From positions 1 to 27,873 of the IMG/VR virus record IMGVR_UViG_3300017964_000057: DNA of 27,873 nucleotides. One strand, written 5' to 3'. The notes beneath the pieces were generated by a model that saw only the letters and a list, made by a program, of their open reading frames with translations, was not told the DNA's origin and did not search any database. Made by a program: the position numbers and the translations under genes. Source of the DNA: a virus. The stretch's first letter is position 1. Every line of letters starts with the position of its first letter. Shown piece after piece: positions 10,329-27,873 of this stretch.

Positions 10329-10329
10329 T

Positions 10330-12837: not shown

Positions 12838-13747
12838 GTTTACTGTTAGCATAAACCCTACATACTTTTGTAACTTTCGTTGCGACTTTTGTTATCTTAC
12901 ACCAGAGCAACTAGCAAACAAACATCGTATTAGCCCACAAGAACTTGATCAAAGATTAAGCGAAATAACTGTGCCTATTACACACGTTGACTTATATGGC
13001 GGTGAAATAGGATTACTTGACAAAGATTACTTTTACAGCATTAAAAGTGTAATAAAAAAACACTTTGCTGGTACTATAAATATTAATACTAACTTTAGTG
13101 CAAGACCGGATTTCTTTTTAGACGACGATGTGCATGTTAGTGTGAGCTATGATTTTGAAGCACGTGAGCTAAGTGACACTGTGTTAAGAAACATATTATT
13201 GTTTCCTAAAGATGTAAGTGTACTTGTTTTAGCAAGCCCAAAAGTATTAGCAACAGACGTAGACTTTATGATTAACACATTTAATATGGTTCAGAATATT
13301 AAGTGTGTTGAGATAAAACCTTACAGCACTAACCAAGCAAATGCACACCCTGTTACACACAAAGACTTTGAAGAACACGTTAAAAAATGGATAGAGTCAC
13401 CAATACAAAAGCAATTTGATTTTGTAAATGTTGACGAGTTAGAAGATGTATTAGATGGAAAACGTAATGCATTTTCAAACGATCATGTTTATATTACTCC
13501 AGATGCTAAGTTTGGTGTGCTAGAGTTTGATGACAATGATAATGAATATTTTGAAAAATATAATAAATTTGAAGATTATCTATTTTGGGCCGATCAAGAG
13601 CCAACAAAAAATTTAAGTCCTATATGTCATAGTTGCGAATACTATGGAAAATGTTTAACAGAACATTATAGATTTGTACATGACTTAGATAATGGATGCA
13701 ATGGTTACAAAGGATTAATAGACTGGTATGCTAGACTGGAAGATTAG
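12830..13747 (+). CDS. Radical SAM protein C with a shortened C-terminal cluster region
   Basis: This 305-residue protein has C14-x3-C18-x2-C21 (CNFRCDFCYL) and a GGE motif in LYGGEIGLL near residue 56. The C-terminus has only four clustered cysteines, C266-x2-C269-x5-C275 and C290. That matches one cluster of a SPASM or twitch domain and is the same layout seen in the five minus-strand paralogues. It is shorter than proteins A and B. It overlaps protein B at its start and the next small gene by 20 bases at its end. Family membership is clear from the motifs. Substrate and product cannot be read from the sequence. Confidence 0.83.
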   Translation: MTEFTVSINPTYFCNFRCDFCYLTPEQLANKHRISPQELDQRLSEITVPITHVDLYGGEIGLLDKDYFYSIKSVIKKHFAGTININTNFSARPDFFLDDDVHVSVSYDFEARELSDTVLRNILLFPKDVSVLVLASPKVLATDVDFMINTFNMVQNIKCVEIKPYSTNQANAHPVTHKDFEEHVKKWIESPIQKQFDFVNVDELEDVLDGKRNAFSNDHVYITPDAKFGVLEFDDNDNEYFEKYNKFEDYLFWADQEPTKNLSPICHSCEYYGKCLTEHYRFVHDLDNGCNGYKGLIDWYARLED

Positions 13748-14147
13748 ACAACAACTTTTTAATTCTACTGCGGAAGAATTTACAGACGACTTAAATTTAG
13801 TTAATATTCGCACAGAAGAAGATAGTGTTACTTGGGCAGTAAAACACTTTAACGAACGTGTAGACGAATGGGTATATCCTGCTAAAAGTTATTTTGTAGC
13901 AATATGTTATGCTTATTGGATTAGTTTAGATTTTCGTTACGACTTTATTGAACTGCTAGACGACAAAGACTTGTTAGCAGGCAACGATCCATACTTTAAA
14001 ACTTATAGTGAAGATAAAGCAACTTACAATGCTATACTTGATCAGGTTGAACTACCTGATCCTTCATCTCAGATGGGAATGGTGCCCGACGTTCGATCGT
14101 ATTATGAGGAAGAGATGATGTTTGACGAGTATCCCCTACATAGTTAA
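13728..14147 (+). CDS. Small acidic protein of unknown function
   Basis: I do not recognise this 139-residue protein. It is acidic and rich in aromatic residues, with a central predicted helical stretch (SYFVAICYAYWISLDFRY) that is moderately hydrophobic but interrupted by charges, so it need not be a membrane segment. It has one cysteine and no catalytic motif I can name. It starts within the end of radical SAM gene C and is the last gene of the rightward unit. Its last 116 bases overlap the end of the opposite-strand radical SAM gene D. Its place suggests an accessory or partner protein for the rSAM enzymes, but that is inference. Confidence 0.6.
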   Translation: MLDWKIRQQLFNSTAEEFTDDLNLVNIRTEEDSVTWAVKHFNERVDEWVYPAKSYFVAICYAYWISLDFRYDFIELLDDKDLLAGNDPYFKTYSEDKATYNAILDQVELPDPSSQMGMVPDVRSYYEEEMMFDEYPLHS

Positions 14148-15243
14148 AAAATTCACGTATAGGACATACGCCCGGCGGTAAGTCTCTTGCACGGTTCTTC
14201 CAGTCCCATTGTGTATAACAACGAAAACCACAACGATCAAAATAAGGACAACTTAAACAACCTACTTCATCCATGTATGCTTGCATAAGGTTGGTGTTGT
14301 CTTTTCTAATATATGCATGATTAAAGTCATTGCGTGTATAACGATGCCAACGACAGTTTGCAGTTGTGTTGTCAGGGAATATTGTGAGCTTGTTTAAACT
14401 CATACAGTGCATTTGATTTTTATCTTGTGTTAATAATTCTCTATAAGGAAATACCATAGGATAGTTATCTGCAATATATTTCATAAACTTCAAATACAAA
14501 CTATCACTTGGTACTAGATGATCGTAACCTGGATCAGGAATAAAATCATCAAAGAACAAATCAAAATTTTTGTACAAGTAATCAAAATACTCATCGCCAG
14601 CAAACAGTGCGTTAATACTGTCTGTTGTTGCTACTAGGTTAATAGTAGACACATAGTCTTTGAAACGTTCGATATTTTTAGTGTATTGTCCGCCTGTAGG
14701 ACGACCGCTTAGATCATAACTAGCAATCAGTTTACTTGGGATGTCTACTGCATTTAATTTGTCTAACAGTGTACGTACATCTTCGTGATATTTGAATAAA
14801 AAGTTGCTGACCCAAACTACTTGTATTACATGTCCGTACTTGTCACAGATTTTTTTAATCTCAAGCATTAGATCATAATACATAGGATACAGTGTTTCTC
14901 TTGCACGGTCTTGAAACAGCTCTCCGCCTACCATATTAAACTGCATAGCATGTACTTTGCCTTGCATCTTTTTACAGTGTGCTTCTACTAGAGGAAGTTT
15001 AGCAAGCATTTCAGGATATGTCATGCCCACTGTACTGTCTTTGTCATGAAAGCAAAAGTCGCACACAATAGGACAGTTTTCAAATAGAGTGATTTCTATT
15101 TCGCCAATAAGAGGACGCTTACGCTCTAGTATCATATGCGTAACTGCATTTGCTGCTTGTTGTTCCGGAGTGTCTAATAAATGATCGTCGGTAACATTTT
15201 CAGGCATTAATGCTTTTAATATTTCTGTGCCACAACCGCCCAT
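14032..15243 (-). CDS. Radical SAM/SPASM protein D
   Basis: This 403-residue protein carries C57-x3-C61-x2-C64 (CPIVCDFC), a GGE motif at about 106-108 (MVGGELF), and a full SPASM-type set: C280, C297, C329-x2-C332-x5-C338-x3-C342 and C360. This resembles the peptide/protein-modifying SPASM enzymes more than its upstream neighbours do. An N-terminal extension of ~45 residues precedes the rSAM core. The last ~38 residues follow the final cysteine and are encoded in the part overlapping the opposite gene, so the tail is probably not part of the catalytic fold. The start shares a TAATG overlap with the preceding gene. A T4-consensus late promoter lies 41 bases upstream. It is the last gene of the leftward unit. 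Confidence 0.87.
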   Translation of the reverse strand: MGGCGTEILKALMPENVTDDHLLDTPEQQAANAVTHMILERKRPLIGEIEITLFENCPIVCDFCFHDKDSTVGMTYPEMLAKLPLVEAHCKKMQGKVHAMQFNMVGGELFQDRARETLYPMYYDLMLEIKKICDKYGHVIQVVWVSNFLFKYHEDVRTLLDKLNAVDIPSKLIASYDLSGRPTGGQYTKNIERFKDYVSTINLVATTDSINALFAGDEYFDYLYKNFDLFFDDFIPDPGYDHLVPSDSLYLKFMKYIADNYPMVFPYRELLTQDKNQMHCMSLNKLTIFPDNTTANCRWHRYTRNDFNHAYIRKDNTNLMQAYMDEVGCLSCPYFDRCGFRCYTQWDWKNRARDLPPGVCPIREFFNYVGDTRQTSSLPHNTIERRAPFPSEMKDQVVQPDQV

Positions 15244-16367
15244 TATCTATAACCTATATTATTGTAAAGTGCCATTACGTTTTTATTTATAAGGCACTCG
15301 TTTTGTTGTATTACATCTGACATGAGTGTTTGTATTAGCCTTGAGTTACAATTTTCAACATACTCACAGTTGTTGCACACAAGGTTAGGTATATTTTTAT
15401 ACTGTTGTATTTGCAAGTTGTGCTTTTTATTCATTATACTTGTTAGCACACTGCCTTCTATTGGTATCTCAAAGCTCTCATGATATATTGGAGAGTTTTC
15501 ATATAAGAAAGGAACAACATATAACTTGTCGTTATTAACAGTAACAATAACTTCGTTAAAGTTTTTATGACTATTATCACTTTGTTGCCAAATAAAGTTT
15601 TCTTTAAAACGTTTTTCGTCTTTGTCTACAACACTTTGTATACTGTTATTCCAGCCTTGTATTATGCCTAACATTTTGTCAGGCTTGTTTACCATTGCAC
15701 GTACTAGACTAGGTCCCCATTCTACAACAGTACCCCATTTTTTACGCACACTTTCTATTTTATCCAATACATCATCGTCAACTTTTTGTGTAATATTACA
15801 AAGCAGACTTACTTCATACTCAACACTACTTGCTTCCATCATTGCAAGGCGTTTTTCAATAAGACTGTGTACGTTTGAGTTATCCAACATATGCAAGTCA
15901 ACTGCTATTTGTACATCAAAAGGACGCTCACAAAGATAACTGTTTTCAACATGTTTAATTACTTGTTCAACACGTTCGTCTCCGATGAAAAAATCAACTG
16001 AACAGTTGTGTTGCAAGCCTCCTTCTTCAGGTAAAGCATCAACTATTTTACGAAAACGAGGATCTTCTAATACAGGTATAATATTGCCGCTTGAAAAGAA
16101 ATCGGTAGGTCCTACAATAATATCATCAAGCACATATTGTTCGGTTAGTTCATCAACTAATTGTGCTGCTAGGTCAAGTCCTAACCCTGTTCCGTAGTTT
16201 TTTCTGCGTTTAACAAAACAACCTGAACAGTTATATGCACACCCTTCAAGTATTTCAAGCATGAGTTGTATTTTTATTTTGTTTTGATCAGCAGGATTTA
16301 CAAAACCTTCATCATGATAATCTGTTTTATTTTTGTTTAAGTAGTCTTGCCAATCTTTACGTAGCAT
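15243..16367 (-). CDS. Radical SAM-like protein E, GPTD paralogue family
   Basis: The protein is 374 residues from the ATG at 16367, chosen because GGAGAG lies five bases upstream; an 11-residue longer frame from 16400 overlaps the previous gene further and lacks a site. It has C43-x3-C47-x2-C50 (CAYNCSGCFVKRR) and VGPTD at 85-89, where radical SAM proteins usually have GGE. It has a PFLYEN motif near residue 285 and a C-terminal four-cysteine set C331-x2-C334-x5-C340-x17-C358. These landmarks are shared with four upstream neighbours, so it belongs to a tandem paralogue array. It is the last and probably one of the more diverged members. It is likely a radical SAM enzyme with one auxiliary cluster; the substrate is unknown. 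Confidence 0.78.
   Translation of the reverse strand: MLRKDWQDYLNKNKTDYHDEGFVNPADQNKIKIQLMLEILEGCAYNCSGCFVKRRKNYGTGLGLDLAAQLVDELTEQYVLDDIIVGPTDFFSSGNIIPVLEDPRFRKIVDALPEEGGLQHNCSVDFFIGDERVEQVIKHVENSYLCERPFDVQIAVDLHMLDNSNVHSLIEKRLAMMEASSVEYEVSLLCNITQKVDDDVLDKIESVRKKWGTVVEWGPSLVRAMVNKPDKMLGIIQGWNNSIQSVVDKDEKRFKENFIWQQSDNSHKNFNEVIVTVNNDKLYVVPFLYENSPIYHESFEIPIEGSVLTSIMNKKHNLQIQQYKNIPNLVCNNCEYVENCNSRLIQTLMSDVIQQNECLINKNVMALYNNIGYR
15284..15291 (-). promoter_or_regulatory. Internal late-type promoter (TATAAATA) ahead of radical SAM gene D
   Basis: The minus strand reads TATAAATA, the exact T4 late-promoter element, 41 bases before the ATG of gene D and inside the 3' end of gene E. It could give gene D its own late transcript. 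Exact matches are expected several times by chance in DNA this AT-rich, so only the position supports it. Confidence 0.35.
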
Positions 16368-17436
16368 TATAGCTCTCCAATACACGTAAAGGATATACAC
16401 AGTCTTTAAATTTATAGTGTTCCATATACTTTAGTACATGTTTACTCATACATATTTCTCTACGACTACAATTTTCACAACTTGTAGTTTCTGATAGGTA
16501 ATCTAGCTGTTCTAAATATAATGTTGTTTTTAAATCAGTCCAACTTTTAATGTCTGTAGGATTTTGCACACGAAACTCATCAGTTTTTATTAGTGCTGCT
16601 TCATAAACAAACGGAGTTGAATAAAACTCTCCTTGACTGAATGTATAGTTAAGTTCAAACGGACCACCTTGGTCTTTGTCTGCAATAGTCATTGCAAGAT
16701 ATTCTTTATTTGTATCGTTAAAAGTATTTTCAATAGTCTTAACCCAGTCATTAATTAAACGTTCGTGTATTACACCTTTGCTGTAACGTTGATAGCTAGG
16801 TAGTGTTTCCAATATACTTTCGTATTCATCACGCACTATGCGACTTATTTCTGCTAGATTTTCAATATTGCTATCTATATTAAATGTAATGTAATAATCT
16901 ACAGGATCAGTAAACTTGTTTAGTACTTCATGTATACGTGCAATGTTATTTTTTCTATATGTAGGATCTAAAACTTGTTTAGGATCTATTACAACTTGGA
17001 AACCATATAGAAAATCATCACGCTTTGGTATACTGTTGAACTTCTCTATAACTTGGTCAATGTATTTGTCGTCTGCTTGCAGTGTACTTGGCATTTCAAT
17101 AGTAGTACAACGACTTACTAGCGTTCTAAAGTTTTCGTAATCTAGTAAATCTAATATATTCAAGTTACCAAACACATCTGTAGGACCAATGTTTACACTT
17201 GTAAAGCGTATATTGTTAGACATAAACAGTTCTTGTGCATCAAGTACCTTTTGAATGTCTTCGTTTGTAACTTGTTGACGTCTACGATTAACAAAGCACC
17301 CTGCACAGTTATGTATACAACCATCAAGAACGTCTAGAGTCATGTTTACTTTTATTTCGTGAGCATTTGCCACACCAATATTGTAATCTTCGTGTCCTCT
17401 AGTTGTTTCCCAATAGTTATTTTTTACGATTGGCAT
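16357..17436 (-). CDS. Radical SAM-like protein F, GPTD paralogue family
   Basis: This 359-residue protein has C40-x3-C44-x2-C47 (CIHNCAGCFVNRR), IGPTD at 83-87, a TPFVYEA motif, and the C-terminal set C320-x2-C323-x5-C329-x16-C346. It opens MPIVKNNYWE, very like gene G (MPVIKNNLYYE), and both have LDVLDGCIH before the cluster, so F and G are probably the closest pair in the array. It overlaps gene G by 20 bases at its start and gene E by 11 bases at its end. The conserved iron-sulfur motifs argue for an active radical SAM enzyme. The lack of a normal GGE motif means the SAM-binding mode may differ. Confidence 0.8.
   Translation of the reverse strand: MPIVKNNYWETTRGHEDYNIGVANAHEIKVNMTLDVLDGCIHNCAGCFVNRRRQQVTNEDIQKVLDAQELFMSNNIRFTSVNIGPTDVFGNLNILDLLDYENFRTLVSRCTTIEMPSTLQADDKYIDQVIEKFNSIPKRDDFLYGFQVVIDPKQVLDPTYRKNNIARIHEVLNKFTDPVDYYITFNIDSNIENLAEISRIVRDEYESILETLPSYQRYSKGVIHERLINDWVKTIENTFNDTNKEYLAMTIADKDQGGPFELNYTFSQGEFYSTPFVYEAALIKTDEFRVQNPTDIKSWTDLKTTLYLEQLDYLSETTSCENCSRREICMSKHVLKYMEHYKFKDCVYPLRVLESYNAT
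16373..16378 (-). promoter_or_regulatory. Ribosome binding site that fixes the start of radical SAM gene E
   Basis: The minus strand reads GGAGAG, five bases before the ATG at 16367. It overlaps the last codons of gene F and supports the shorter start over the in-frame ATG at 16400. Confidence 0.65.
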
Positions 17437-18598
17437 GGTATACTTTCTTTATTTCTTCTAGTCGTTCATCGCCGTCTTCAGTTACTAAGAACTTTTTGCG
17501 ATAACCTTGCTTGTCTGCTTCAACTGAATAGTCTGTCCAGTCATACATTTCTGCTGCACTTTTATTATAGTTATAAATGTTCTTCATCATATTTTCTTTA
17601 GGTGCAATACAAGTGTCTACACCTAAGTAATCACGTAGTAATATTACTTTTCTGTTATAACAACTAAAGAACAAGTCGCAATTTTCACACTCTGTACCTT
17701 TTGCACGTTCCATTTGTGTTAGTGTCTTGTAATATGCTTCGTCTAAGTCCTTAACTTCAAACTGTTCATCATACAATGCCATGTTTTCATACATAAATGG
17801 ACTCAAATACCACTTGCCCTTCTTAAAGTTAAGTACTGTGTAGTTGTGTCCAGCATGAGAATGGTCAACCATGATGTTGTTTAGATGAGTGTCTTCAGGT
17901 AGTGCTTCAAAAAATGCATTAAACTGGTTAAGTGTACGCAATATTATGTTAGGTTTATGGCTACGACTAACACTTGGTATAAAGTCAATGGTAGTATCAA
18001 ACTCTTTAACTACAAAATCATGTATTTGTTCATAGTCTAAGTCATATTGTCTAATGTTTACAATGAATGTGTATGTACATTCGTGTTTTAGGTTAGCATC
18101 AATGTACGCAATACAACGTTTGAGCTGTTGTATGTACAATATGTCCTTGTAACGCATTGGATCTGTTGCAATACCTACCTCTATTTCAGTATCAGTGTTA
18201 ACATTGGCGTGTAAGAAGTTAATCCAACGCTCTAAGTAGCTCATGTCTTGCTCTAAAAAGGTTGTAGTGAACGCAAGTATAGGAGAGTTTTCATTTATCA
18301 TAGACAACAAGTCGGGATCTTGCATTACTTGGTAAAAGTTTTCGCTAGACAGGCAGTCTGTTGGGCCTATTAGTACTTCATCTACTAAAATTCCCTTGTC
18401 AGTTATGCGTTTTACAAACTCACGGCACTGTTTTAAGTGATTTTCTTCAGGAGCATTGCCTCTACGGTGTACAAAACAGCCCGGACAAGCGTGTATACAC
18501 CCGTCTAACACATCTAATTGTATTTTTACGGCACTAACTGGTTTAGTTTGTGTTTCTGTTGTTAGCTCGTAGTACAAGTTGTTCTTAATGACTGGCAT
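17417..18598 (-). CDS. Radical SAM-like protein G, GPTD paralogue family
   Basis: This 393-residue protein has C34-x3-C38-x2-C41 (CIHACPGCFVHRR), IGPTD at 77-81, an SPFMYEN motif, and C304-x2-C307-x5-C313-x16-C330. Unlike its neighbours it carries a ~63-residue charged C-terminal extension after the last cysteine, ending in a lysine-rich HANRKK. The start has GGAG eight bases upstream and overlaps gene H by 14 bases. The sequence similarity to gene F extends through the N-terminal strand and cluster loop. It is presumably a sister enzyme with a distinct substrate position or partner; the extension could be a docking tail. Confidence 0.8.
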   Translation of the reverse strand: MPVIKNNLYYELTTETQTKPVSAVKIQLDVLDGCIHACPGCFVHRRGNAPEENHLKQCREFVKRITDKGILVDEVLIGPTDCLSSENFYQVMQDPDLLSMINENSPILAFTTTFLEQDMSYLERWINFLHANVNTDTEIEVGIATDPMRYKDILYIQQLKRCIAYIDANLKHECTYTFIVNIRQYDLDYEQIHDFVVKEFDTTIDFIPSVSRSHKPNIILRTLNQFNAFFEALPEDTHLNNIMVDHSHAGHNYTVLNFKKGKWYLSPFMYENMALYDEQFEVKDLDEAYYKTLTQMERAKGTECENCDLFFSCYNRKVILLRDYLGVDTCIAPKENMMKNIYNYNKSAAEMYDWTDYSVEADKQGYRKKFLVTEDGDERLEEIKKVYHANRKK

Positions 18599-19613
18599 TT
18601 AGGTACTCCTTGGGCAATACACACTCTGTTAAACCTCTATCTTGCATGTAAAACAGTACATTACGCTCTGCACAGCTCATTAAATGAGGACAACTTGCAC
18701 ATTCTTGAGTATTTTCAGCATATGCAAGGTTGCGAGACAAGAAATCATCACTGTTTATGTTTTGTACTTCAAAGTTTGGTGTACGTTGCAGTATAGCATC
18801 GTACAAAAACGGATTCATATACAGTTTACCATTGTAAAAACTGTAGTTAGAGCATCCATAGCCATTAAACTGTGCATCAAACATAGTATACAGGCTTTTG
18901 TACTTGGGGTCAATCTTTTGTTTGCTTAGTTCTTGTATAAACATTGGCAAATATTTACTTACTTTGCCTCTGCTGTTACGATCGTTAAGGAAACTTGGTA
19001 GTATAACTACAGGAGCATTGAAATCTTTCATGGTCATATCACATAAATGATTGTAATCAACACTATCAAATATGCCTGGATAGTAGTTTACTCTAAACTG
19101 CACACTGCCTTGTTTAAACAGTTCAAGTTTGCGACACATATCTTCAACATCGCCCTGCAAGTAACGTTCAATGTCGAGCACTATCTTAAAGTCTATGTCA
19201 GGTGTGCGATCTAGTCCTTCGTAAAGGCTCCAAATCTTAGTGTGTTTAGCAAGTATTGTGTTGTAGTCCTGTAGTAGCGTTGAGTTAAAACTTAATGCTG
19301 CAATGTTGTACAAGCGTTTCATACTAGGATGCTCCATCAACTCCCAAAAGTTTTCAGCATCAAATATATCAGTAGGTCCTATTACAACATCGTCAGGTGT
19401 ATATGCACTAGATTCTAGTATATCACAAAGAGTTGTTAAGTGATCAGCACTGGTTAAGTTTTTGCGTGGAATAAAACAGCCAGGACACTGTTGACTACAG
19501 CCGTGTAGTATGTCAGCATGAACTTCAACCCTAAGAAAGTTGTTATCCTTAGGGCTTACACCTTCAACGTAGTTATTAAATCCTGATGGAGTTGCGTTTA
19601 AGTTAACGAGCAT
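18585..19613 (-). CDS. Radical SAM-like protein H, GPTD paralogue family
   Basis: This 342-residue protein has C39-x3-C43-x2-C46 (CSQQCPGCFIPRK), IGPTD at 78-82, a NPFLYDA motif, and C305-x2-C308-x5-C314-x16-C331. It has the same layout as genes E, F, G and I but low overall identity, showing the array is old and diverged. It overlaps gene I by 11 bases at its start and gene G by 14 bases at its end, so translation is probably coupled. It has no extension after the final cysteine beyond a short tail. The substrate is unknown. Confidence 0.8.
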   Translation of the reverse strand: MLVNLNATPSGFNNYVEGVSPKDNNFLRVEVHADILHGCSQQCPGCFIPRKNLTSADHLTTLCDILESSAYTPDDVVIGPTDIFDAENFWELMEHPSMKRLYNIAALSFNSTLLQDYNTILAKHTKIWSLYEGLDRTPDIDFKIVLDIERYLQGDVEDMCRKLELFKQGSVQFRVNYYPGIFDSVDYNHLCDMTMKDFNAPVVILPSFLNDRNSRGKVSKYLPMFIQELSKQKIDPKYKSLYTMFDAQFNGYGCSNYSFYNGKLYMNPFLYDAILQRTPNFEVQNINSDDFLSRNLAYAENTQECASCPHLMSCAERNVLFYMQDRGLTECVLPKEYLNASH

Positions 19614-20784
19614 TGACGATTTTCAAGGCATCGTCATTCCATTGCTCTGTGCTGTCAATAAACGGATTGTACATTTCAAGTACTTCTAGCGGCATCAGGC
19701 ACTCATGCATATTCATAGCGTCTTGTGCTTGGAATATCAGTCTGTTTGCACATGCTACAGCATACTTACAATCAGCACAATCCTTAACAGTGGAAGACTT
19801 TGCCAAGCCTTTTGCTATTAGTTGATCCCTCTTTGCCAATATTTCTTCAAAACTTAAACCTGTTACTTCTAATTCTTTATGTTGTGTAAAGAACGCTTGT
19901 TCGTGTAGCATAACATTTAGGAATACACGAGGTGCATCAAAGCCAGGAATAATAGTTAGCCCTATGAAGTTCATTGAGTTACAGTACAAGTTAGCCATAC
20001 TCATTGTAACATCAGCATAGTTATCTTGATCTACTACTTCTTTTAAGAAGTTGTTCCATGCTACTAGATTCTTACGCTGGTGTAATACACTTGGTGCTCT
20101 AGAGAACGCAGGGTTCATTTCTAGAATAGTTTCGTAATCTTCAAGAATCTTGTATAGCAGTTTGTTGTAGTTTTCTTTAGTTAGATGTTTTTGCATTACA
20201 TTACTTGCTTGTAATGTCCAACTCCAGTCAATGTTTTTAGGAGTTTCATTTGCAAAGAACTCTAGTTTTGCTTTTATGTCTTTGAAATATTCTTCATCAT
20301 TAAGTATACGGTCAATATCACCTACTGGCATAATAAACTCAATGATCATTTCATCTCTGTATTTTGCAGGATCGTCAAGTATTGAAAATACTTCACGTAG
20401 TCTTTCCATGCTTACATCGTCTATTTTGCTAGGTGTAGCAATACGTGCTTTTGTATGTTCACGCATGATATCCTGTATAATAGGATTGTTAAGAATATTG
20501 TCTGTATTATTTGCTGAGAAAAGATCAGTTGGACCAATAACAAACTCACGTAAATTAAGTCCTGTGCGTGTTACGCCGTCTGCAAGTTCTTTTGCAGTAG
20601 TTAACATTGCATCCATTGTAGCAACGTCTTGATTTTTGTTAACAAAACAACCTAAACAACCATGGTTACAACCAGTGAGTCCTTCAAAGTTAATTAGTAC
20701 GTCAAACTTTTGTGCATGACTAGGAGGTAGACTCTCAGGTCCACTGTATCTCATCTGCTTGCAGTATGATTGTTGCATTGTCAT
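19603..20784 (-). CDS. Radical SAM-like protein I, GPTD paralogue family (first of the array)
   Basis: This 393-residue protein has C39-x3-C43-x2-C46 (CNHGCLGCFVNKN), IGPTD at 83-87, and C336-x2-C339-x5-C345-x16-C362, with a ~31-residue tail. The PFxYE motif of the other copies is weaker here. It is the promoter-proximal member of the five-gene array. Its start overlaps the stop of the upstream unknown gene by four bases (ATGA), with GAGGG nine bases before it; a second ATG follows two codons later. The gene directly follows two unknown proteins and the twin Cys/His-tailed proteins, which makes those the natural candidates for partner and substrate. Confidence 0.8.
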   Translation of the reverse strand: MTMQQSYCKQMRYSGPESLPPSHAQKFDVLINFEGLTGCNHGCLGCFVNKNQDVATMDAMLTTAKELADGVTRTGLNLREFVIGPTDLFSANNTDNILNNPIIQDIMREHTKARIATPSKIDDVSMERLREVFSILDDPAKYRDEMIIEFIMPVGDIDRILNDEEYFKDIKAKLEFFANETPKNIDWSWTLQASNVMQKHLTKENYNKLLYKILEDYETILEMNPAFSRAPSVLHQRKNLVAWNNFLKEVVDQDNYADVTMSMANLYCNSMNFIGLTIIPGFDAPRVFLNVMLHEQAFFTQHKELEVTGLSFEEILAKRDQLIAKGLAKSSTVKDCADCKYAVACANRLIFQAQDAMNMHECLMPLEVLEMYNPFIDSTEQWNDDALKIVNAR

Positions 20785-21491
20785 TCTGTTATTCCCTCAT
20801 CAAATAATTCTAGCATATTATTTGCAACACCATGTTTTATTAATGTGTTATATAAGTCAGCACCTTGATACTTACTTTCATTGTTAAAAACTCTAACATT
20901 TAAGTTACTAGTTGGCCACGGACCAAACTTATGTCCTAACAAATACAAAACATCAATAGCATATGTTGCTATATATACAATATTTAGCCCGATTTCTGTA
21001 TCACTATCAGTGTATTCTAACTCTTCTGGCACAAGTTCTTTATACTTGTCGTTATATTTGCTGGCTTGATCAATACAGAACAATGCAACGTGTTGCATTT
21101 TGTCTAACAAATCGTCAAATAATTTTCCATGTTCATTAATATACTCGTCGATCATATCATTTGACCACAGAGTATTCATTGCAGCATCAACATTGTTATA
21201 TTCTTGACCTAATTTTCTTTTTGCAATTAGTGCTATAATTCTAGCTAGTAAAGGTGCTTCAACTAGAAAATTAATTTTAATATATTCATTTAGTAGTTCT
21301 GCATCAACAGTGTCAAACTGTACTTTAAAGTTTGTGTTAGCAATATAGACTAAGATATGTTTTACAGATAATACTTTTTTACTTTCTTCATAATTTACAT
21401 GAAGAGTGTAATCATCACTATCTGCTTTGATCTTATAAATTTCTGCTAGATCTGTTGGTTTTAAAGGTAGTATATAACTTTGTGTTGACAT
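20781..21491 (-). CDS. Protein of unknown function, upstream of the rSAM array
   Basis: I do not recognise this 236-residue protein. It looks mainly helical, with hydrophobic stretches at about 74-92 (PLLARIIALIAKRKL) and 165-190 (IVYIATYAIDVLYLLGHKFG). These could be buried helices or weak membrane segments. There is one cysteine and no metal or nucleotide motif. The start has TAGGAG five bases upstream and lies eight bases past the preceding stop. It overlaps radical SAM gene I by four bases. Its place between the twin tail proteins and the rSAM array suggests a scaffold or partner protein, but nothing in the sequence proves it. Confidence 0.65.
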   Translation of the reverse strand: MSTQSYILPLKPTDLAEIYKIKADSDDYTLHVNYEESKKVLSVKHILVYIANTNFKVQFDTVDAELLNEYIKINFLVEAPLLARIIALIAKRKLGQEYNNVDAAMNTLWSNDMIDEYINEHGKLFDDLLDKMQHVALFCIDQASKYNDKYKELVPEELEYTDSDTEIGLNIVYIATYAIDVLYLLGHKFGPWPTSNLNVRVFNNESKYQGADLYNTLIKHGVANNMLELFDEGITE

Positions 21492-21499
21492 TGTGTCTC

Positions 21500-22552
21500 C
21501 TATACCAGTGGTTTTACTTTAAACAGCAAATACGGTATACGACTCTTACGCTTGTAGAAGAATTCTACTTCACTCCAAGCATTTCTAAGTGCTTCGTTAT
21601 TTGCAAAATTAAATCCGCCCTCTGCTATTTGTACTACAATAGGAATAGTTTTAGCAAATTCTTTGTATACTTCTTCATATTCCCAATCTTCGTGGTTGTT
21701 AATGAGTTCTAAGAGTTCAGCATTATTGCCAACATCGTTCCAAAAATCTCTTAACACATAAAGTGCTTGCATGCGATTTTTATTTTGGAATGTATCTTTA
21801 ACAAATTGTACTTTGTCCCATGATGAATTACCGTTTGCATGGAACCAATCAATAATACCGTTAATAACACTAATATAACCAATTTTATTTTGTAGCATAC
21901 CAATTACTTCATCAATCATTTTTTCACTGTGAACAGTGAATTTTTCACGCAAATGATTTTGTGTTACTAAGTTAATTTCTGCATACGTTTCATTTTCGTT
22001 ATACTTGTCATTAATAAAGAAAAGTATATCATAACCCCAATGTTTACTACTTGGAGTGCCCATGTTATGCCATTCATTTTTAGCGTAAACATCTTCAACA
22101 CAACCGTTAATATCATTTTCTGTAAATGTAGTGTATGTTGCGTATGTAATATCTCTTTGGAACACTAACTTTAAAAAGTCTTTTACTACATCTTTAACAT
22201 CTTTGTTAGTTGCTGTTTGTAGTAGAGATGCAATATACTTTGCATATACACGAATTAAATCTAATGCATCATCAAATAATAAAAACTCTTTGTCATTGTT
22301 TGACAAATATTCCCATGTGTTTATTTGATCAGTTGTAGTGAACGAAAGCATATCCGGATTTGCATTAGGATAATCTGTAAGTAGTGTATTAACATACGAG
22401 TCTCGTACTTGTGAGTGTCCTTCCGGTGCTACTAACACCATTTTTCTTGTTTGATCGCCTGCCCAAGGACTCTCTGCTAAAGCACTTACCATAGAGCTAG
22501 ACTTTCCTAAATATTTCTTATTGTTGATATAATAAAAACTTTCACCTATCAT
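21500..22552 (-). CDS. Protein of unknown function, downstream of the Cys/His-tailed twins
   Basis: This 350-residue protein is not one I recognise. It begins MIGESFYYINNKKYLGKSSS. The GKSSS run is not a P-loop, because the G-x4-G spacing is missing. The middle (residues ~95-300) is helical and charged, with many aromatic residues. It has one cysteine and no catalytic signature I can name. Its ATG overlaps the stop of the 127-residue Cys/His-tailed protein as TAATG, using that gene's purine-rich end as ribosome site, so the two are probably translated together. It may be a structural or adaptor protein belonging with the twins. Confidence 0.65.
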   Translation of the reverse strand: MIGESFYYINNKKYLGKSSSMVSALAESPWAGDQTRKMVLVAPEGHSQVRDSYVNTLLTDYPNANPDMLSFTTTDQINTWEYLSNNDKEFLLFDDALDLIRVYAKYIASLLQTATNKDVKDVVKDFLKLVFQRDITYATYTTFTENDINGCVEDVYAKNEWHNMGTPSSKHWGYDILFFINDKYNENETYAEINLVTQNHLREKFTVHSEKMIDEVIGMLQNKIGYISVINGIIDWFHANGNSSWDKVQFVKDTFQNKNRMQALYVLRDFWNDVGNNAELLELINNHEDWEYEEVYKEFAKTIPIVVQIAEGGFNFANNEALRNAWSEVEFFYKRKSRIPYLLFKVKPLV

Positions 22553-22935
22553 TATCTTCTTCCCCTTGAGCCGTGACAGCTATAATGGCAACTACTATGA
22601 CAGATTCTCCAATCAAAATATGTGTTAGTTAGTCTGCCTTCTATTTGGTTAACTGTGCGTGAAATACAGTTAGTTGCAAAATTTTGTACCTCACTTGCAT
22701 ATACTTTTAGATTATCTCCAATGTTATTTGGAAGATCTGCTGTACTATATGTTCCTTGTCCTGCGTTTACATACTCATAACGTCTGTTACCGTAAGCAGT
22801 TCCAGAACCCCAACCACTTACGTTTGCATAATAGCACGTAGCATTGAAGTTAATAGTCTTGTCAAAAGATCTAAGACGTAGATACGCATTGTTATAGTAT
22901 CTTGTTTCTAAAGAAGCGTGTGACTCGCCTGCCAT
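22552..22935 (-). CDS. Small Cys/His-tailed protein 1 (candidate rSAM substrate or metal-binding tip)
   Basis: This 127-residue protein ends in CHSSCHYSCHGSRGRR (residues 112-127): three CHxS units then RGRR. It is a paralogue of the next upstream gene. Shared blocks are SFDKTIN at 23-29, GTAYGNRRYEYVNA at 45-58, and a tail block beginning at IEGRLTN. The body is rich in Gly, Tyr and Asn, as in a small fibre or decoration protein. The repeated Cys-His-x-Ser tail recalls RiPP core peptides and the His-Xaa-Ser (HxsA) type of rSAM-associated protein, and the operon carries six radical SAM genes downstream. Alternatively it could bind metal like a fibre tip. No signal peptide or double-glycine leader site is evident. 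It is a real gene: overlapping starts and a conserved twin support it. Confidence 0.75.
   Translation of the reverse strand: MAGESHASLETRYYNNAYLRLRSFDKTINFNATCYYANVSGWGSGTAYGNRRYEYVNAGQGTYSTADLPNNIGDNLKVYASEVQNFATNCISRTVNQIEGRLTNTYFDWRICHSSCHYSCHGSRGRR
22555..22602 (-). other. CHxS x3 - RGRR tail of protein 1
   Basis: Codes for three consecutive Cys-His-x-Ser units followed by Arg-Gly-Arg-Arg and the stop. The purine-rich end (AGG GGA AGA AGA) also serves as the ribosome site for the next gene, whose ATG overlaps the stop. Confidence 0.7.
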
Positions 22936-23309
22936 TACCTTCTCCCTCTACTGCCGTGACAACTATAATGGCAACTTGTATGACAAATACGAAAATCAAA
23001 ATACTGATTAGTTATTCGACTTTCGATTAAATCACAAGTTCTTGTTATAGCATTTAGTGCCTGGTCTATCATATGTCCTGCATCTACTAGTGTAGTATTG
23101 GGATACACGTTTCCGTTGTAATCACTGTTAGGAGCATTTACATACTCATAACGTCTGTTACCATATGCAGTACCTGCGTTGTAACCGCCATAGTTTTGAT
23201 TAGTATAAACTGTGGCTGCTACGTTTACAGTTTTATCAAACCCTCGCAATTGAGCACCAGCATTGCCGGTAAAATAATCTCTTGCGGATGTTCGATTCAT
23301 GTTTCCCAT
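22935..23309 (-). CDS. Small Cys/His-tailed protein 2 (candidate rSAM substrate or metal-binding tip)
   Basis: This 124-residue protein ends in CHTSCHYSCHGSRGRR (residues 109-124), differing from its twin by one residue in 16. The N-terminal 60 residues share FDKTVN and GTAYGNRRYEYVNA with it, but the middle (60-95) is diverged, so selection has held the tail and the YGNRRYEY block. The start may be 23309 or the in-frame ATG at 23300. It lies three bases after the large fibre gene and overlaps its twin by one base (TAATG). Its place directly behind a tail fibre gene suggests a virion part. The Cys/His tail next to an rSAM array suggests modification. Both may be true. Confidence 0.75.
   Translation of the reverse strand: MGNMNRTSARDYFTGNAGAQLRGFDKTVNVAATVYTNQNYGGYNAGTAYGNRRYEYVNAPNSDYNGNVYPNTTLVDAGHMIDQALNAITRTCDLIESRITNQYFDFRICHTSCHYSCHGSRGRR
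22938..22985 (-). other. CHxS x3 - RGRR tail of protein 2
   Basis: Same tail as the twin gene, with Thr in place of Ser at the variable position of the first unit. The codons AGA GGG AGA AGG just before TAATG are a strong ribosome site for the twin. Confidence 0.7.
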
Positions 23310-23312
23310 GGA

Positions 23313-26300
23313 TTATACCTTAACTTCAACTACATCTGTACCGTCTTCAATAGCAACACCAATTAATAATGTGTATTCTGCTATAGTACTTAGTTCGTCT
23401 ATAGCACGGCCTGCACCGTCCTGATCAGCAATAATATACTGACCTTTCTTAGCAGAACCGTTAATCTTACATGGAACACGACCTTTTAGTGCAACGAACG
23501 GCCACATTGGATCATCTCTGTTATCGTCTGTTTGGTTCATCATCAAACCTGGCTGTGTTGATACAACGCCTGCTAGTTTCATGCCTTCTTTGTATAGTGT
23601 AACTTCTTTGTCGCCACCAATACCTAGTACTGTACCTGGAGCATACACTGCGTCTGCTTCGTATTTCTCTGCCAAGTCAGCCCAGTTAGCACTTGCTGCT
23701 GTACCTTGATAAACACCGCTGTTGTCAACGTATGAAACATCTGTACCGTCACGTCTAAACTGAACAATACGATCGGAGTTAGCACCAGCTGCCATGTAGA
23801 ATCTGTTAGCATGATATTCAATCTTACCAACGTCATTACCTGGGTTACCAGTCCATGTTTCGTTTGCGTTTTCCATAAAGCGGATGCCTGGTGAGTTACC
23901 ATCATTGTTGTATGAACGTAGTGCCCAGTTACCATCTTCGTTTAGGAAACCTTGTGATGCATCGTCTGCATATAGTCTACCATAGATAGTGTTTGAACTG
24001 TTGTTTAAACGTAGTTCACATGATCCAGTATTTGCAGAACGGAACGCCATTGCGTTTGTTTCATTTGGATAAATGTGCCAGCCTGCGTAGTTGCCACCTT
24101 GCCAGTAAATACCTGAGTTGCTTTCAATGCGTACCCAGTTATCAACATATAGCTCGCCTGCAATGTTTGCACCGTCGGAACGTGTTTGAACTTTCCAACT
24201 ACCATTGTGCATCATTTCAGTTTGGCCGCCGTGTACACCGTAGAACAACCACTGGTTATTTACATCGTTGTAGATACCAGTTGCTGTACCGCCATCATGC
24301 ATGAATACTGCACGACCATCAATGCTAAAGCCTTCCCAGTTACCATAACCACTACCGCTAATTTGGATTGAACCGTAGTCGCCTGTTGGTTCTCTTAAGT
24401 AACGTGTAGTTTGGTTACCAACTGCAATAAACTGTTTAACAACTAGTCGACCATCTGTTGTAAGTGCCATAGCACCAGCTGCTACGCCGTCACCATCATG
24501 TCTCCACTTCCAACCACGGTCTGTGTCGTTGTTCATTGTAAAGGTCATTGCATAGTCATTCAACCAACCCATTGTTTGACCACTAAACATACCAATTGAG
24601 TATGAGCTGTTGTTCCAAACACGTAGTTTGTCGTAACTATCGCTGCCTTCGCCGTCAATGTAACCAATGTTATAACGTGTGCCACTTGCAAACAAGTCTG
24701 GGAATGTACCAGCGTTTAGATTGCTTGCATTACGGAAGAATGCACTATCATTACCATCTAGTAAGTCTGCATCTAAGCCGCTGCCGCTACCATCGTTACC
24801 AGCATGCCATACTTTGTATGCATTAGCACCCATTGACCAACCGCCAACTGCTAGATCGTTTGTACTTCCGTCTAGACCAAAGTGTACAGCATAGTCGCCA
24901 CCAATATGGAATGTTAAGAATGCATCATATTGGTTAGCACCGTTACCTTGATATAGTTGTAATGTGTTAACTTCACCAGTGTTTTGAATTGTTGTTGCAG
25001 GAGCACTAATTGTAAACACACCGCCACTAAATGCAGCACCAGTATCAACACGTAGGAAGCTACTTGCATGCAATCCGTCTAGTAGGTCTGCGTTTAAGCC
25101 TGAACCTGCACCGTCGTTAGCGTCAGTCCAAATAGCACCGCCGTTAACATAACCAGTTGTAGCGTTAAAGCTACCATTAACATCTAGGTTATAAGTACCG
25201 CTTGGATCTTTGTTAATACCAACTTTACCATCACCGCGTACTGAGAATACAATGTTACCATTAGTTTGACTTACGTCATTGTTAACACGGAAGAATGTGC
25301 TTGCCGCAGCATTGTTTGAGTTAGTGTCAAGTCTTACGTTAACGTTGTTGTAAGAGTTAATGCTTAAACTATCGCCAGCACCCCAAGTATCGTTACGTGA
25401 ACTAATACCATGGTTTACATAGCCGCCAATTGCACCGTAGTTTCCATCCCAGTCAAAGCTAATGCCATGTACTTTTGCAAGTTCGCCTGTTGTGCCACCG
25501 CTTGAAATAAAGCGTCTATTAGTGTCAATAGTTTCAACGCCGCCTACATTATAACTGTTACCGTCAATAGCACCAGTTAGTGTAAGTTCAGCAGCAACTA
25601 AGTTACCACCAACGTACAAGTTCTTACCAAAGCTACCACCACCGTCTACACGTAAAGCACCTGTTGTAGTGCTTGTTGCTTGGTCAGCGGAGTTAACGTG
25701 CAAGTAACCACTTGATGCACCAATGTCAATAGCAGTTGCAGCACCACCAATGTTGAGTGTAGTAACTGTATCGTTTAATAGATCAAATGTTGCTTGGTTA
25801 GTACCCAAACTACTTGCTTGTGTAATAACGTTTTTGTTAAGTCTAATAGCATCGCCTGCGAAACTTGCTACAAGTTCGCTTGTTTGGATGCCGCTACCTG
25901 AACCAATACTTTCGGAACCATAAATGTTAACTATAGCACCAGTACCTGAACCAGTACCTGGGTTTGGTTTTAGATTTAGTTCAGAACCGTTAACGTTAAA
26001 CTGTCCAGTAATTGGACCTTTTACACCAATTGTACCTGATTGTTTAGAACCTTGTGAACCTCTACCAAACTCTAGTTTGTGAGTATGTGCATCAGTACCA
26101 CTTACTTCAACGCGATTAACTTGTGTTGTTGAAGTACTGCCTGAAGTTCCTGAATAGCCTGTGTCAATAAACACAGATCCTGCTACACCACTACCAGTGC
26201 TTGCACCGCCTTGTACTGTTAGATCTGCACCTTGCTTGTTAGTACCTAATGCATTTGGTGCTTTGATTACTGAATCAACTGGAGCAGTTTCTACTGCATC

Positions 26301-27873
26301 GCCACCTACAACCATTGTAGTATTTCTAACTGCTAGTGTACCAGATTTGTCAGCACCTAAAGTAATTAATGTTGCTGCTCTACCAATACTTAGTGATGTA
26401 ACTGTAGTATCGTATACAGTTGCACTTGTCTTAGTAGTTTTAATATCACCACCATCAACATTAAAGTCACCGTCAATTTGTAGGTTACCTAGTGAATCAA
26501 GAACCATGCGTTCTGCTAAGAAGCCTGCTGCCATCAAGTTAAACTTGAAGCTAAAGTCTTCAGAACCAAACGTTACATCTGATGCAACAGCGTCAATAGT
26601 ACCACCAACTTCTCTGTTGTTGTTTGCAGTTTCTACTTGGAACTGCATACCAACACCAATACCTACTGCTGGTGTGTTAGAAACATCGTGACGTATTTCA
26701 AGTGGTCTTGAAACACCAAAGTTGTTAGTATCTTCTACGAACGGAGCAACGTCATTTGACCATGCTGGGTTTCCTAATTCGTCAACAACCATAACAGCAC
26801 CTTGGCTACCAATTGGTAGTCTGTTTAGTGTTGTTGGTGATGTTGCATAAATCATATCACCTGCAATATACTGATCAAGTGCTGTACCACCTTTGTTAAC
26901 AGGCACAGGGTTTAACATGTTACCTGGATCTAAGAAGTATTGACTGTCTAGTCCGTCAAGTGTACCTGCATCAAGTACGCCTGCTTTTAGTTCAACTTCA
27001 CCTGAATTTACATTAAACTGTGCTTTGCTGTATGAAGCAACACCTTCGTTTGTAAAGCTCTGATTACCTAATGTATCATCTGCTCTGTCAATATCAAGTT
27101 GTGTATCTTTATAATAGAAGTTTTGTCCACCGCTAGTATAGAAGTTACCAGTAATGTTTAGTGGTGAGTTAAGTGCTGTTCTTGTAGTTCTTACTGCATA
27201 ATCCCAGCTGCTGTCACCTTTTAAGTATGTGTTACTGTTAGCAGAACCAATAGATGCAAGTCTTGATGTACTAATAACACCCGAAACAATGTTTGAAGCA
27301 TCAACGTTTGCACTACCAGTTAGTGCCCAGTTTGCAGAATTTTTACTTGAAGTATTAATTTCGCCGTAAACTGTGATATTCTGATGGATAAAGTCTGCAC
27401 TACCACTACCAGTTTGAACAAAGTTAATTGCACCTTGTACAACACCGTTTACACTGTTTAGAGCATCTTCTCTAAATTCGTGTACTGTGAAAGTGTTTTG
27501 ACTTACTGTACCTGCGTAGTAGTAAGATCCACTTGACATTCCTGTTGGAGGGTTAGTACCTACAAAGCGGAATGCTCTACCAGCTGTAAATCCGTGGTTT
27601 GGTGAGTAGATCTTATCTTTACGTGTGTCAACGTTGTTGATAATAAGTGCATGTGTACCAGTTGAACTTACAGTAAAGTTAACTTTTGTACTTGCATTTA
27701 AATCATACCTGTTGTATAATTCAATAGTGTTAGCATCAATTACTTTTACAAAGTAACTTTCACCCTGCAACATACCTCCAATTGGAGTGTTTGGTGAGCT
27801 TGCATAGTTAACAACGTCACCGTCATCAAATATATGACTTGTTATTTCAATCTGTGAATTTGCATAGTCAACA
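23313..27873 (-). CDS. Large tail fibre protein (partial, 5' end beyond the right edge)
   Basis: The frame is open to the window edge. The first ATG in the frame is at 27773, but upstream codons continue in frame (DDGDVVNYASSPNTPIGG), a block usual inside marine fibre proteins, so the true start lies outside. At least 1519 residues are present. Repeated units GSGLxADLLDG...FR (for example GNDGSGSGLDADLLDGNDS) mark phage fibre shafts. The C-terminal ~123 residues start WADLAEKYEADAVYAPGTVL and include VVSTQPGLMM and ALKGRVPCKINGSA, resembling the intramolecular-chaperone (Peptidase_G2-like) ends of other fibres. It is followed after three bases by the twin Cys/His-tailed genes, so these may join the same fibre or its tip. 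Confidence 0.85.
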   Translation of the reverse strand, partial: VDYANSQIEITSHIFDDGDVVNYASSPNTPIGGMLQGESYFVKVIDANTIELYNRYDLNASTKVNFTVSSTGTHALIINNVDTRKDKIYSPNHGFTAGRAFRFVGTNPPTGMSSGSYYYAGTVSQNTFTVHEFREDALNSVNGVVQGAINFVQTGSGSADFIHQNITVYGEINTSSKNSANWALTGSANVDASNIVSGVISTSRLASIGSANSNTYLKGDSSWDYAVRTTRTALNSPLNITGNFYTSGGQNFYYKDTQLDIDRADDTLGNQSFTNEGVASYSKAQFNVNSGEVELKAGVLDAGTLDGLDSQYFLDPGNMLNPVPVNKGGTALDQYIAGDMIYATSPTTLNRLPIGSQGAVMVVDELGNPAWSNDVAPFVEDTNNFGVSRPLEIRHDVSNTPAVGIGVGMQFQVETANNNREVGGTIDAVASDVTFGSEDFSFKFNLMAAGFLAERMVLDSLGNLQIDGDFNVDGGDIKTTKTSATVYDTTVTSLSIGRAATLITLGADKSGTLAVRNTTMVVGGDAVETAPVDSVIKAPNALGTNKQGADLTVQGGASTGSGVAGSVFIDTGYSGTSGSTSTTQVNRVEVSGTDAHTHKLEFGRGSQGSKQSGTIGVKGPITGQFNVNGSELNLKPNPGTGSGTGAIVNIYGSESIGSGSGIQTSELVASFAGDAIRLNKNVITQASSLGTNQATFDLLNDTVTTLNIGGAATAIDIGASSGYLHVNSADQATSTTTGALRVDGGGSFGKNLYVGGNLVAAELTLTGAIDGNSYNVGGVETIDTNRRFISSGGTTGELAKVHGISFDWDGNYGAIGGYVNHGISSRNDTWGAGDSLSINSYNNVNVRLDTNSNNAAASTFFRVNNDVSQTNGNIVFSVRGDGKVGINKDPSGTYNLDVNGSFNATTGYVNGGAIWTDANDGAGSGLNADLLDGLHASSFLRVDTGAAFSGGVFTISAPATTIQNTGEVNTLQLYQGNGANQYDAFLTFHIGGDYAVHFGLDGSTNDLAVGGWSMGANAYKVWHAGNDGSGSGLDADLLDGNDSAFFRNASNLNAGTFPDLFASGTRYNIGYIDGEGSDSYDKLRVWNNSSYSIGMFSGQTMGWLNDYAMTFTMNNDTDRGWKWRHDGDGVAAGAMALTTDGRLVVKQFIAVGNQTTRYLREPTGDYGSIQISGSGYGNWEGFSIDGRAVFMHDGGTATGIYNDVNNQWLFYGVHGGQTEMMHNGSWKVQTRSDGANIAGELYVDNWVRIESNSGIYWQGGNYAGWHIYPNETNAMAFRSANTGSCELRLNNSSNTIYGRLYADDASQGFLNEDGNWALRSYNNDGNSPGIRFMENANETWTGNPGNDVGKIEYHANRFYMAAGANSDRIVQFRRDGTDVSYVDNSGVYQGTAASANWADLAEKYEADAVYAPGTVLGIGGDKEVTLYKEGMKLAGVVSTQPGLMMNQTDDNRDDPMWPFVALKGRVPCKINGSAKKGQYIIADQDGAGRAIDELSTIAEYTLLIGVAIEDGTDVVEVKV

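Follow-up and report, generated by a model that had tools for sequence, protein, structure and literature searches.

Clusters of radical S-adenosylmethionine (rSAM) genes in phages have been noted before and, in the available text of those reports, either go without an explanation or are interpreted as genes for host fitness (PMC7029224, PMC11898562, PMC2853527). They include rSAM cassettes noted in the host recognition cluster of pelagimyophages (PMC7029224) and, in Burkholderia jumbo phages, cassette enzymes that the accessible sections list as accessory genes (PMC11898562, PMC8066314). For the His-Xaa-Ser (HxsABCD) systems, which also combine short His-containing repeats with rSAM genes, the available text of one discussion gives a putative assignment only (PMC9062424). 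Here we analyze a 27,873-nucleotide stretch of viral DNA (IMG/VR virus record IMGVR_UViG_3300017964_000057, positions 1 to 27,873; "the window" below), in which two adjacent small genes encode twin proteins that share a C-terminal tail of Cys-His-x-Ser units and accompany a cassette of rSAM genes. We consider it probable that the twins are fiber-end proteins and that a dedicated set of rSAM and Fe(II) enzymes modifies their C-terminal tail, in the manner of a ribosomally synthesized and post-translationally modified peptide (RiPP). That the tail is the substrate of the cassette is strongly indicated, because the two are linked across loci and the tail residues are conserved. A search of the open-licence literature found no description of the tail or of a substrate of the cassette.

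The twin open reading frames (ORFs) share one base, and their products terminate in RICHSSCHYSCHGSRGRR and RICHTSCHYSCHGSRGRR, both of the form CHxSCHYSCHGSRGRR. The two tails are identical at 15/16 residues and the bodies at 50/107 aligned residues (47%), which bears out the earlier observation that these paralogs diverge strongly in the middle while keeping near-identical ends. The tails differ synonymously at four codons, including TCA versus AGT for one Ser, and their identity is thus maintained at the protein level and does not reflect a recent DNA copy. The tail DNA pattern matches twice in the window and in none of 100 dinucleotide-preserving shuffles. A match of one twin to the Pfam family Phage_30_8 fell below the cut-off (17.4 of 25 bits) and was not relied on.

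The initial annotation had taken the tail to be fixed as CHxS-CHYS-CHGS-RGRR, a form that holds in both window twins but is not the general rule. The 164 unique strict tails show free variation at the x positions, and Ser, or sometimes Asn, at position 4 of the unit; the tail rule is therefore [Cys-His-x-(Ser/Asn)]n-Arg-x-Arg-Arg. Most search patterns preset the C, H and R positions of this rule; in a pattern-blind view of loci selected by rSAM3 (one of the cassette families described below), the C, H and R residues are the same in phages, and the tails are looser in bacteria. Among 54 twin-type proteins, 12 of the 14 invariant columns lie in the tail, where C, H and R were partly selected by the search patterns.

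An exact scan with the DNA pattern matched viral contigs at 103 stretches and bacterial or archaeal genomes at 30, and a second scan (two units plus RGRR) gave at least 119. When the tail was required to lie at the end of an ORF, the viral matches proved mostly real and the genome matches mostly chance repeats; this requirement removed matches in repetitive DNA (e.g., L033, L038, L049, and L105 in our numbering of fetched loci, and most of the genome-scan matches). In total, 168 unique complete proteins with such a run of units were collected, of which 164 are closed by R-x-R-R, and the 38 fetched loci without a strict tail include two true relatives, L007 (CHAS) and L031 (ending in SGGW). The carriers are marine T4-like contigs, chromosomes of Bacteriovoracia, and six isolated jumbo phages: Burkholderia phages FLC6, FLC8, and SURPRISE13, Agrobacterium phage Atu_ph07, Sinorhizobium phage Phosso, and Pseudomonas phage pPa_SNUABM_DT01. 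A tblastn search of phage records with the long tail protein of L034 returned no match. The loci are partly redundant (some contigs were fetched repeatedly), and locus counts here and below are not counts of independent phages. At a blastp E value of 1e-3, the bodies of the tail proteins form two large groups (96 and 59 members) and several small ones, and a profile comparison relates the two large groups to each other (99.35% across 97 columns, with the tail counted in).

The usual number of units is three, with two in L476-L480 and five in L031 (504-kb contig) and L270 (355 kb), each of the latter with rSAM-type genes nearby. The longest run, in L256 (7959-8660, minus strand), is a tail of approximately 69 residues with approximately 14 units and 'NVPV' inserts, on a 250-kb phage contig with six rSAM-type genes. 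Such a variable copy number of one short unit is expected of a repeatedly modified core, and is hard to fit to one fixed metal site. In L233 (1645-2895, minus strand), six CHx(S/N) units instead stand in the middle of the protein, followed by a Pro-Thr-rich linker and a domain that is Hint-like by eye and might cut to expose the tail. On one 151-kb phage contig (G056), a tail gene of the single type and a twin pair occupy different positions (L042 and L302).

Tail and rSAM genes are linked in both directions. A hidden Markov model (HMM) match to an rSAM family lies near the tail in 134/138 loci of any length, in 81/82 with at least 1.5 kb of sequence on both sides, and in 60/60 with at least 2.5 kb on both sides; the contigs of the four loci without a local match do carry rSAM3. 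When whole records were selected by the tail (the 50 tail loci with a listed record length of at least 40 kb), 47 contained rSAM3 at E ≤ 1e-3 and 46 at E ≤ 1e-76, and the other four records have rSAM1 in the tail locus. Conversely, among 36 records selected by rSAM3 (contigs of at least 25 kb out of 80 kept, with the window's own phage left out), 30 contain the tail and none a reversed-pattern control, and each of the six misses is a contig that breaks off within the cassette, short of where the tail would lie. Of 40 T4-like control records, chosen from 80 kept by the tail-sheath-stabilizer gene alone, two carry rSAM3 and the same two carry the tail, one of these being the window's own phage (Fisher p 0.0013). 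Across 50,697 phage records, rSAM1 and rSAM3 (E ≤ 1e-8) each match the identical seven records, all of which have the tail. The rSAM3 of the window's T4-like phage is 55-60% identical to its counterparts in the six isolated jumbo phages, suggesting that the module moves horizontally. Tails common in phages without rSAM genes, the outcome that the initial annotation had named as telling against its reading, were looked for and did not occur: all well-covered loci have rSAM genes, and the T4-like controls mostly lack both. The same linkage, together with the variable unit number, supports the earlier proposal of a multi-site, RiPP-core-like rSAM substrate.

The genes that travel with the tail form a recognizable cassette. 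In the listed non-twin loci, the usual order is fiber, cupin, rSAM1, tail gene, protein B, 'MxHLF' protein, rSAM2, rSAM3, Fe(II) oxygenase, rSAM4, and a small protein, and an rSAM gene lies directly upstream, on the same strand, of 87 of 92 non-twin tail genes (rSAM1 in 84, rSAM-A in three). Family presence was counted in the 60 tail loci flanked on each side by 2.5 kb or more and, as controls, in 27 tail-less T4-like loci. Protein B is found in all 60 tail loci, rSAM2 in 50, rSAM1 in 49, cupin in 46, rSAM3 in 38, and rSAM4 in 33; protein B, the rSAM1-4 families, and cupin occur in 0/27 controls. The 2-oxoglutarate (2OG) oxygenase (22/27) and a NUDIX protein (27/27) are frequent in the controls, and are therefore not cassette-specific. 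Traits of rSAM-type RiPP systems are present here: the precursor gene adjoins an rSAM/SPASM enzyme (three rSAM1 copies exceed the TIGR04085 cut-off), and the C-terminal core has conserved, modifiable residues.

In the mechanism that we propose, the folded N-terminal body would dock on the end of the neighboring tail fiber, leaving a flexible C-terminal tail of Cys-His-x-Ser/Asn units closed by Arg-x-Arg-Arg. This tail would be the common substrate of several rSAM enzymes (with the SPASM-type rSAM1 as its closest partner), a JmjC-like Fe(II) oxygenase, and the helper protein B. These may introduce covalent changes on the Cys, His, and Ser/Asn of each unit, and perhaps on Arg; hydroxylations and thioether or carbon-carbon cross-links are examples. 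The product could be a tip, rigid or loaded with metal, in contact with the host surface. The analysis shows the anatomy of the proteins, the variation in unit number, the two-way linkage, the order of genes next to fibers, and the occurrence in unrelated phages and in predatory-type bacteria. We infer the modification itself, the bonds formed, and the location at the fiber tip.

Table 1. Genes of the tail locus and its cassette in the window (positions in nucleotides; tail loci and controls are the sets of 60 and 27 defined in the text).
Feature	Position	Strand	Evidence and occurrence
CHxS-tail protein 1 (124 aa)	22935..23309	-	Tail DNA ~22938-22985; AlphaFold model
CHxS-tail protein 2 (127 aa), paralog of protein 1	22552..22935	-	Tail DNA ~22555-22602
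Tail fiber gene	23313..27873	-	3-bp gap upstream of twins; PHROG tail fiber matches in C-terminal part
Protein C (350 aa), between twins and protein B	21500..22552	-	Family in 12/60 tail loci, 0/27 controls
Protein B (236 aa), conserved partner	20781..21491	-	Family in 60/60 tail loci, 0/27 controls
Radical-SAM-like, rSAM-A type (CNHGCLGC)	19603..20784	-	CX3CX2C motif, HMM family
Radical-SAM-like, rSAM-A type (CSQQCPGC)	18585..19613	-	Motif, HMM family
Radical-SAM-like, rSAM-A type (CIHACPGC)	17417..18598	-	Weak PF04055 match, motif, HMM family
Radical-SAM-like, rSAM-A type (CIHNCAGC)	16357..17436	-	Motif, HMM family
Radical-SAM-like, rSAM-A type (CAYNCSGC)	15243..16400	-	Weak PF04055 match, motif, HMM family
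rSAM2 (CPIVCDFC)	14032..15243	-	phrog_1802 radical SAM, E 2.9e-26; family in 50/60 tail loci
Small conserved protein (~139 aa)	13728..14147	+	phrog_20737; in 22/60 tail loci, 0/27 controls
rSAM4 (CNFRCDFC)	12830..13747	+	phrog_1802, E 4.9e-34
rSAM3 (CNFKCTFC)	11803..12837	+	PF04055, 36.3 bits (cut-off 29.5)
rSAM1 (CNLNCSHC), SPASM-type C-terminus	10778..11803	+	TIGR04085, 29.3 bits (cut-off 27)
Cupin / JmjC-type Fe(II) oxygenase-like protein	10315..10791	+	PF08007, 29.6 bits (cut-off 22)
2OG-Fe(II) oxygenase, possible cassette member	9771..10328	+	PF13759, E 5.6e-18; 34/60 tail loci vs 22/27 controls

The window encodes nine CX3CX2C proteins (Table 1). The radical-SAM assignment is clear from family matches for four of them; for the other five it comes from the motif, weak Pfam matches, and an HMM family that they share. 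The rSAM1-4 HMM families cross-match and were split by best score. A scan of the rSAM core against the PADLOC defense library gave weak viperin matches only. In the cupin, the H-x-D, Lys, and distal His are conserved in 160/160 family members. We read this pattern tentatively as that of a JmjC-like Fe(II)/2-oxoglutarate oxygenase; a phmmer search with one family member returned general cupins only. The JmjC-like relatives RoxA, MINA53, and NO66 hydroxylate Arg and His, and both residues are present in the tail. Protein B has no Pfam or PDB match, and no RiPP recognition element (RRE) or PqqD-like element was found by Pfam in protein B (23 members) or in the window proteins, a scan that a structural RRE could escape. 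Protein C compares with the 'MxHLF' protein of other cassettes at 39% in hhalign. An additional rSAM of the cobalamin type, related to TokK and CysS, is encoded in L059 (5668-7338, plus strand), where the relation was tested, and look-alikes occur in L087, L096, and L457. The fiber gene runs off the window, and the near-identical contig L001 has an ORF of 3331 aa at that place. A second large fiber gene (1794-6464) stands beside a gene for a 512-aa protein (251-1789, minus strand).

Fiber genes adjoin the tail genes well beyond the window, and support the fiber association that the initial annotation had raised as part of its rival view. In the twin clade, the ORF 3-16 bases upstream of the first twin shares the C-terminal domain of the window fiber in every case with enough sequence, and the same PHROG tail-fiber domain ends the product of the gene that precedes the cupin in the non-twin cassettes tested (six loci). 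Virion mass spectrometry of Agrobacterium phage Atu_ph07 resolved structural clusters, one of which, in the available text, is CDS (coding sequences) 170-215 (PMC6102473). In this phage, gene 170 is the tail protein and gene 171 is rSAM1, and the cluster starts exactly at the tail gene; the numbering of the record agrees with the accessible text, in which gp215 is the major head protein (PMC6102473). Because the tail gene opens this cluster and the numbering agrees, gp170 was presumably detected in the virion. The RP31 virion proteome (PMC5468394) allowed no gene to be matched with the tail, and the available text on AP-J-162 (PMC11242549) does not name the tail gene. It is likely that the mature tail protein sits on the virion fiber.

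The AlphaFold model of tail protein 1 has a helix-strand-strand-helix body and a low-confidence tail, and for both body types a folded body (predicted local distance difference test, pLDDT, 88 in one model) and a disordered tail (pLDDT about 50) are predicted. For the larger body family, Foldseek found nothing significant in the PDB and VIA-align nothing at Z of 2 or more; for the twin protein, the best VIA-align Z was 3.6 and BFVD gave nothing significant. Searched against BFVD, the larger family matched, apart from its own relatives, three long proteins encoded by a single metagenomic phage, Myoviridae sp. ctijX18 (A0A8S5USJ8, A0A8S5USJ7, and A0A8S5USV2; 504-660 aa), which have the body fold in common with the tail proteins.

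Several points weigh against a modified tail at the fiber end. Many RiPP clusters carry a leader peptidase or exporter, and neither was recognized in the listed cassettes, where several ORFs are without identification; the rSAM families are weak or sub-threshold matches to every named peptide maturase scanned; and no report of a modified tail peptide was found in the open-licence literature. In most non-twin phages, the tail gene directly follows rSAM1 and not the fiber gene, and a position beside a fiber gene does not prove binding to the fiber. The detection of gp170 in Atu_ph07, in turn, depends on the boundary of a cluster as given in the available text.

If the body were an oversized leader, the modified tail could be released in the course of infection as an antibiotic, signal, or lysis helper. 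A precursor gene beside a SPASM-type rSAM, a repetitive C-terminal core, and several tailoring enzymes speak for such a cleaved natural product, as does the cobalamin-type rSAM of some cassettes (similarity to TokK and CysS tested for L059). Yet the body is predicted to be a well-folded, conserved domain, no peptidase or exporter was recognized in the listed cassettes, and the gene lies in the structural and fiber region, at the edge of the Atu_ph07 virion cluster in the available text. We regard release as unlikely; the tail would act like a RiPP core and is probably not cut off. Another reading is an unmodified, metal-binding fiber tip. Fe or Zn would be bound by the three Cys-His units of each chain, and the function of the rSAM genes would lie elsewhere. 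The fixed Cys/His spacing, the fiber neighborhood, and the metal sites at the tip of T4 gp37 speak for it. Against it stands the near-complete, two-way linkage with the rSAM cassette; it also gives the conserved Ser/Asn and Arg-x-Arg-Arg no obvious metal-binding role, and does not fit a range of two to approximately 14 units or a variant with one Cys and four HxS triplets. We rate it as improbable, although a modified tail could also bind metal. Slightly more remote is a protein-derived redox or metallo-cofactor, by which the rSAM enzymes would build a catalytic center in the tail and the protein would act as an enzyme on the host envelope. Cofactors built by rSAM enzymes exist, and many rSAM and Fe(II) oxygenase genes do stand beside one small Cys/His-rich peptide, but the tail units are repeated rather than unique, and the body has no detectable relation to a solved enzyme.

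The linkage of tail and cassette extends into bacterial chromosomes. Three genome matches lie beside ordinary genes (e.g., cbb3 oxidase and hydroxyacyl-CoA dehydrogenase; the contig of L458 is short), and these three chromosomal carriers fall in one class, Bacteriovoracia (3/129 genomes, with the class taken from the family name of the center genome). A tail-blind search with rSAM3 was positive in 13/125 genomes of this class. In the ten further rSAM3-positive regions, a tail gene stands in the cassette in eight, with looser tails: CHSACHDNCHSSRGRR, CHGNFPPPCHGSRGRR (four genomes), CHTNVPTPPPCHASRGRR, CHSNHCSHSNHGSRGRR, and CHSSHSSHSSHSSRGRR. The bacterial relative in L483 ends in C followed by four HxS triplets. 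The Peptidase_S74 domain is a fiber chaperone. In five Bacteriovoracia loci tested, a neighboring gene with a pilin-like start carries this domain, as do neighbors in L456 and L457; chimeras of a type IV prepilin-like start and Peptidase_S74 flank the cassette in L474, L476, L477, L480, L482, and L456. Bdellovibrio recognizes prey with S74 fibers, according to the available text (PMC10769870), and with the S74 neighbors in Bacteriovoracia this indicates that the tail tracks attachment fibers in cells as well as in phages. Least probable of all is that the cassette modifies something else, such as a host surface sugar, with the tail protein a passenger in the same hypervariable island: the rSAM cluster of Campylobacter phage CP220 gives a precedent, but tail and cassette occur together in distantly related phages and in Bacteriovoracia chromosomes, and the specific cassette families are absent from all 27 tail-less T4-like loci.

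More broadly, we suggest, as a tentative proposal that may well prove wrong, that a horizontally moving multi-enzyme module, common to viruses and predatory-type bacteria, converts the ribosomally made Cys-His-x-Ser/Asn tail on an attachment fiber into a cross-linked or metal-bearing contact tip for binding or breaching the envelope of another cell. The module would consist of four core radical-SAM enzymes (with nine radical-SAM-like genes in the window phage) and the JmjC-like oxygenase. For one class of phage rSAM clusters, the analysis names a specific candidate substrate and puts forward a role, open to experiment, at the end of the virion that attaches. If the proposal is true, part of a virus particle would be built by RiPP-type chemistry, in marine as well as cultured phages, and predatory-type bacteria would employ the same chemistry in turn; the system would then also give access to the study of rSAM reactions on His and Ser.

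Among described systems, the rSAM cassettes of pelagimyophages are from the same kind of phage and the same genome region, and the available text proposes no substrate or function for them (PMC7029224). The cluster of CP220 (L494), with several rSAM genes, sugar-transferase and amidinotransferase neighbors, and no CHxS tail in the examined stretch, is a separate kind of phage rSAM cluster. Sactipeptides and ranthipeptides likewise place a SPASM-type rSAM beside a Cys-rich C-terminal core with regular Cys spacing; the window system differs from them in its folded body, several rSAM and Fe(II) oxygenase genes, and fiber context, and the PapB maturase model (NF047865) scores at most 43.5 bits against a cut-off of 340. 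CXXX-repeat peptide maturation (TIGR04115) shares the Cys at every fourth residue and the rSAM, whereas the match to its model reaches 23.9 bits against a cut-off of 350.

The initial annotation had likened the tail to HxsABCD substrates, and His-x-Ser units with rSAM genes are indeed common to both. Kinship in the sense of membership was not borne out: ten tail proteins matched 0 NCBIfam families at E ≤ 1, HxsA (TIGR03979) exceeded its cut-off in 0/8 whole records, and the best of ten rSAM proteins scanned reached 41.3 bits against the HxsB cut-off of 370 (TIGR03978) and 23.3 against the HxsC cut-off of 267.9 (TIGR03977). Assignment of the tail proteins to HxsA was accordingly rejected. True HxsA carries its HxS run internally, with another domain at the C-terminus, whereas the window tails are C-terminal. 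As to the tandem His-Xaa-Ser triplets of HxsABCD, the window units have a period of four and contain Cys, and the relative in L483 ends in C and four HxS triplets, so that a mechanistic kinship is possible.

The tip of the T4 long tail fiber carries gp37, with HxH iron sites, and a gp38-type adhesin. As there, the twin-clade protein is small, is encoded directly behind a fiber gene, and has a Cys/His-rich end; it differs from gp37 in that the tail lacks HxH, its His residues are four apart, and an rSAM cassette is linked. The MAT fibers of Bdellovibrio differ in that the accessible text does not mention radical SAM and the tail protein itself is not an S74 fiber, and they resemble the present system in being phage-like Peptidase_S74 fibers of predatory bacteria (PMC10769870), as S74 chimeras flank the tail cassette in Bacteriovoracia.

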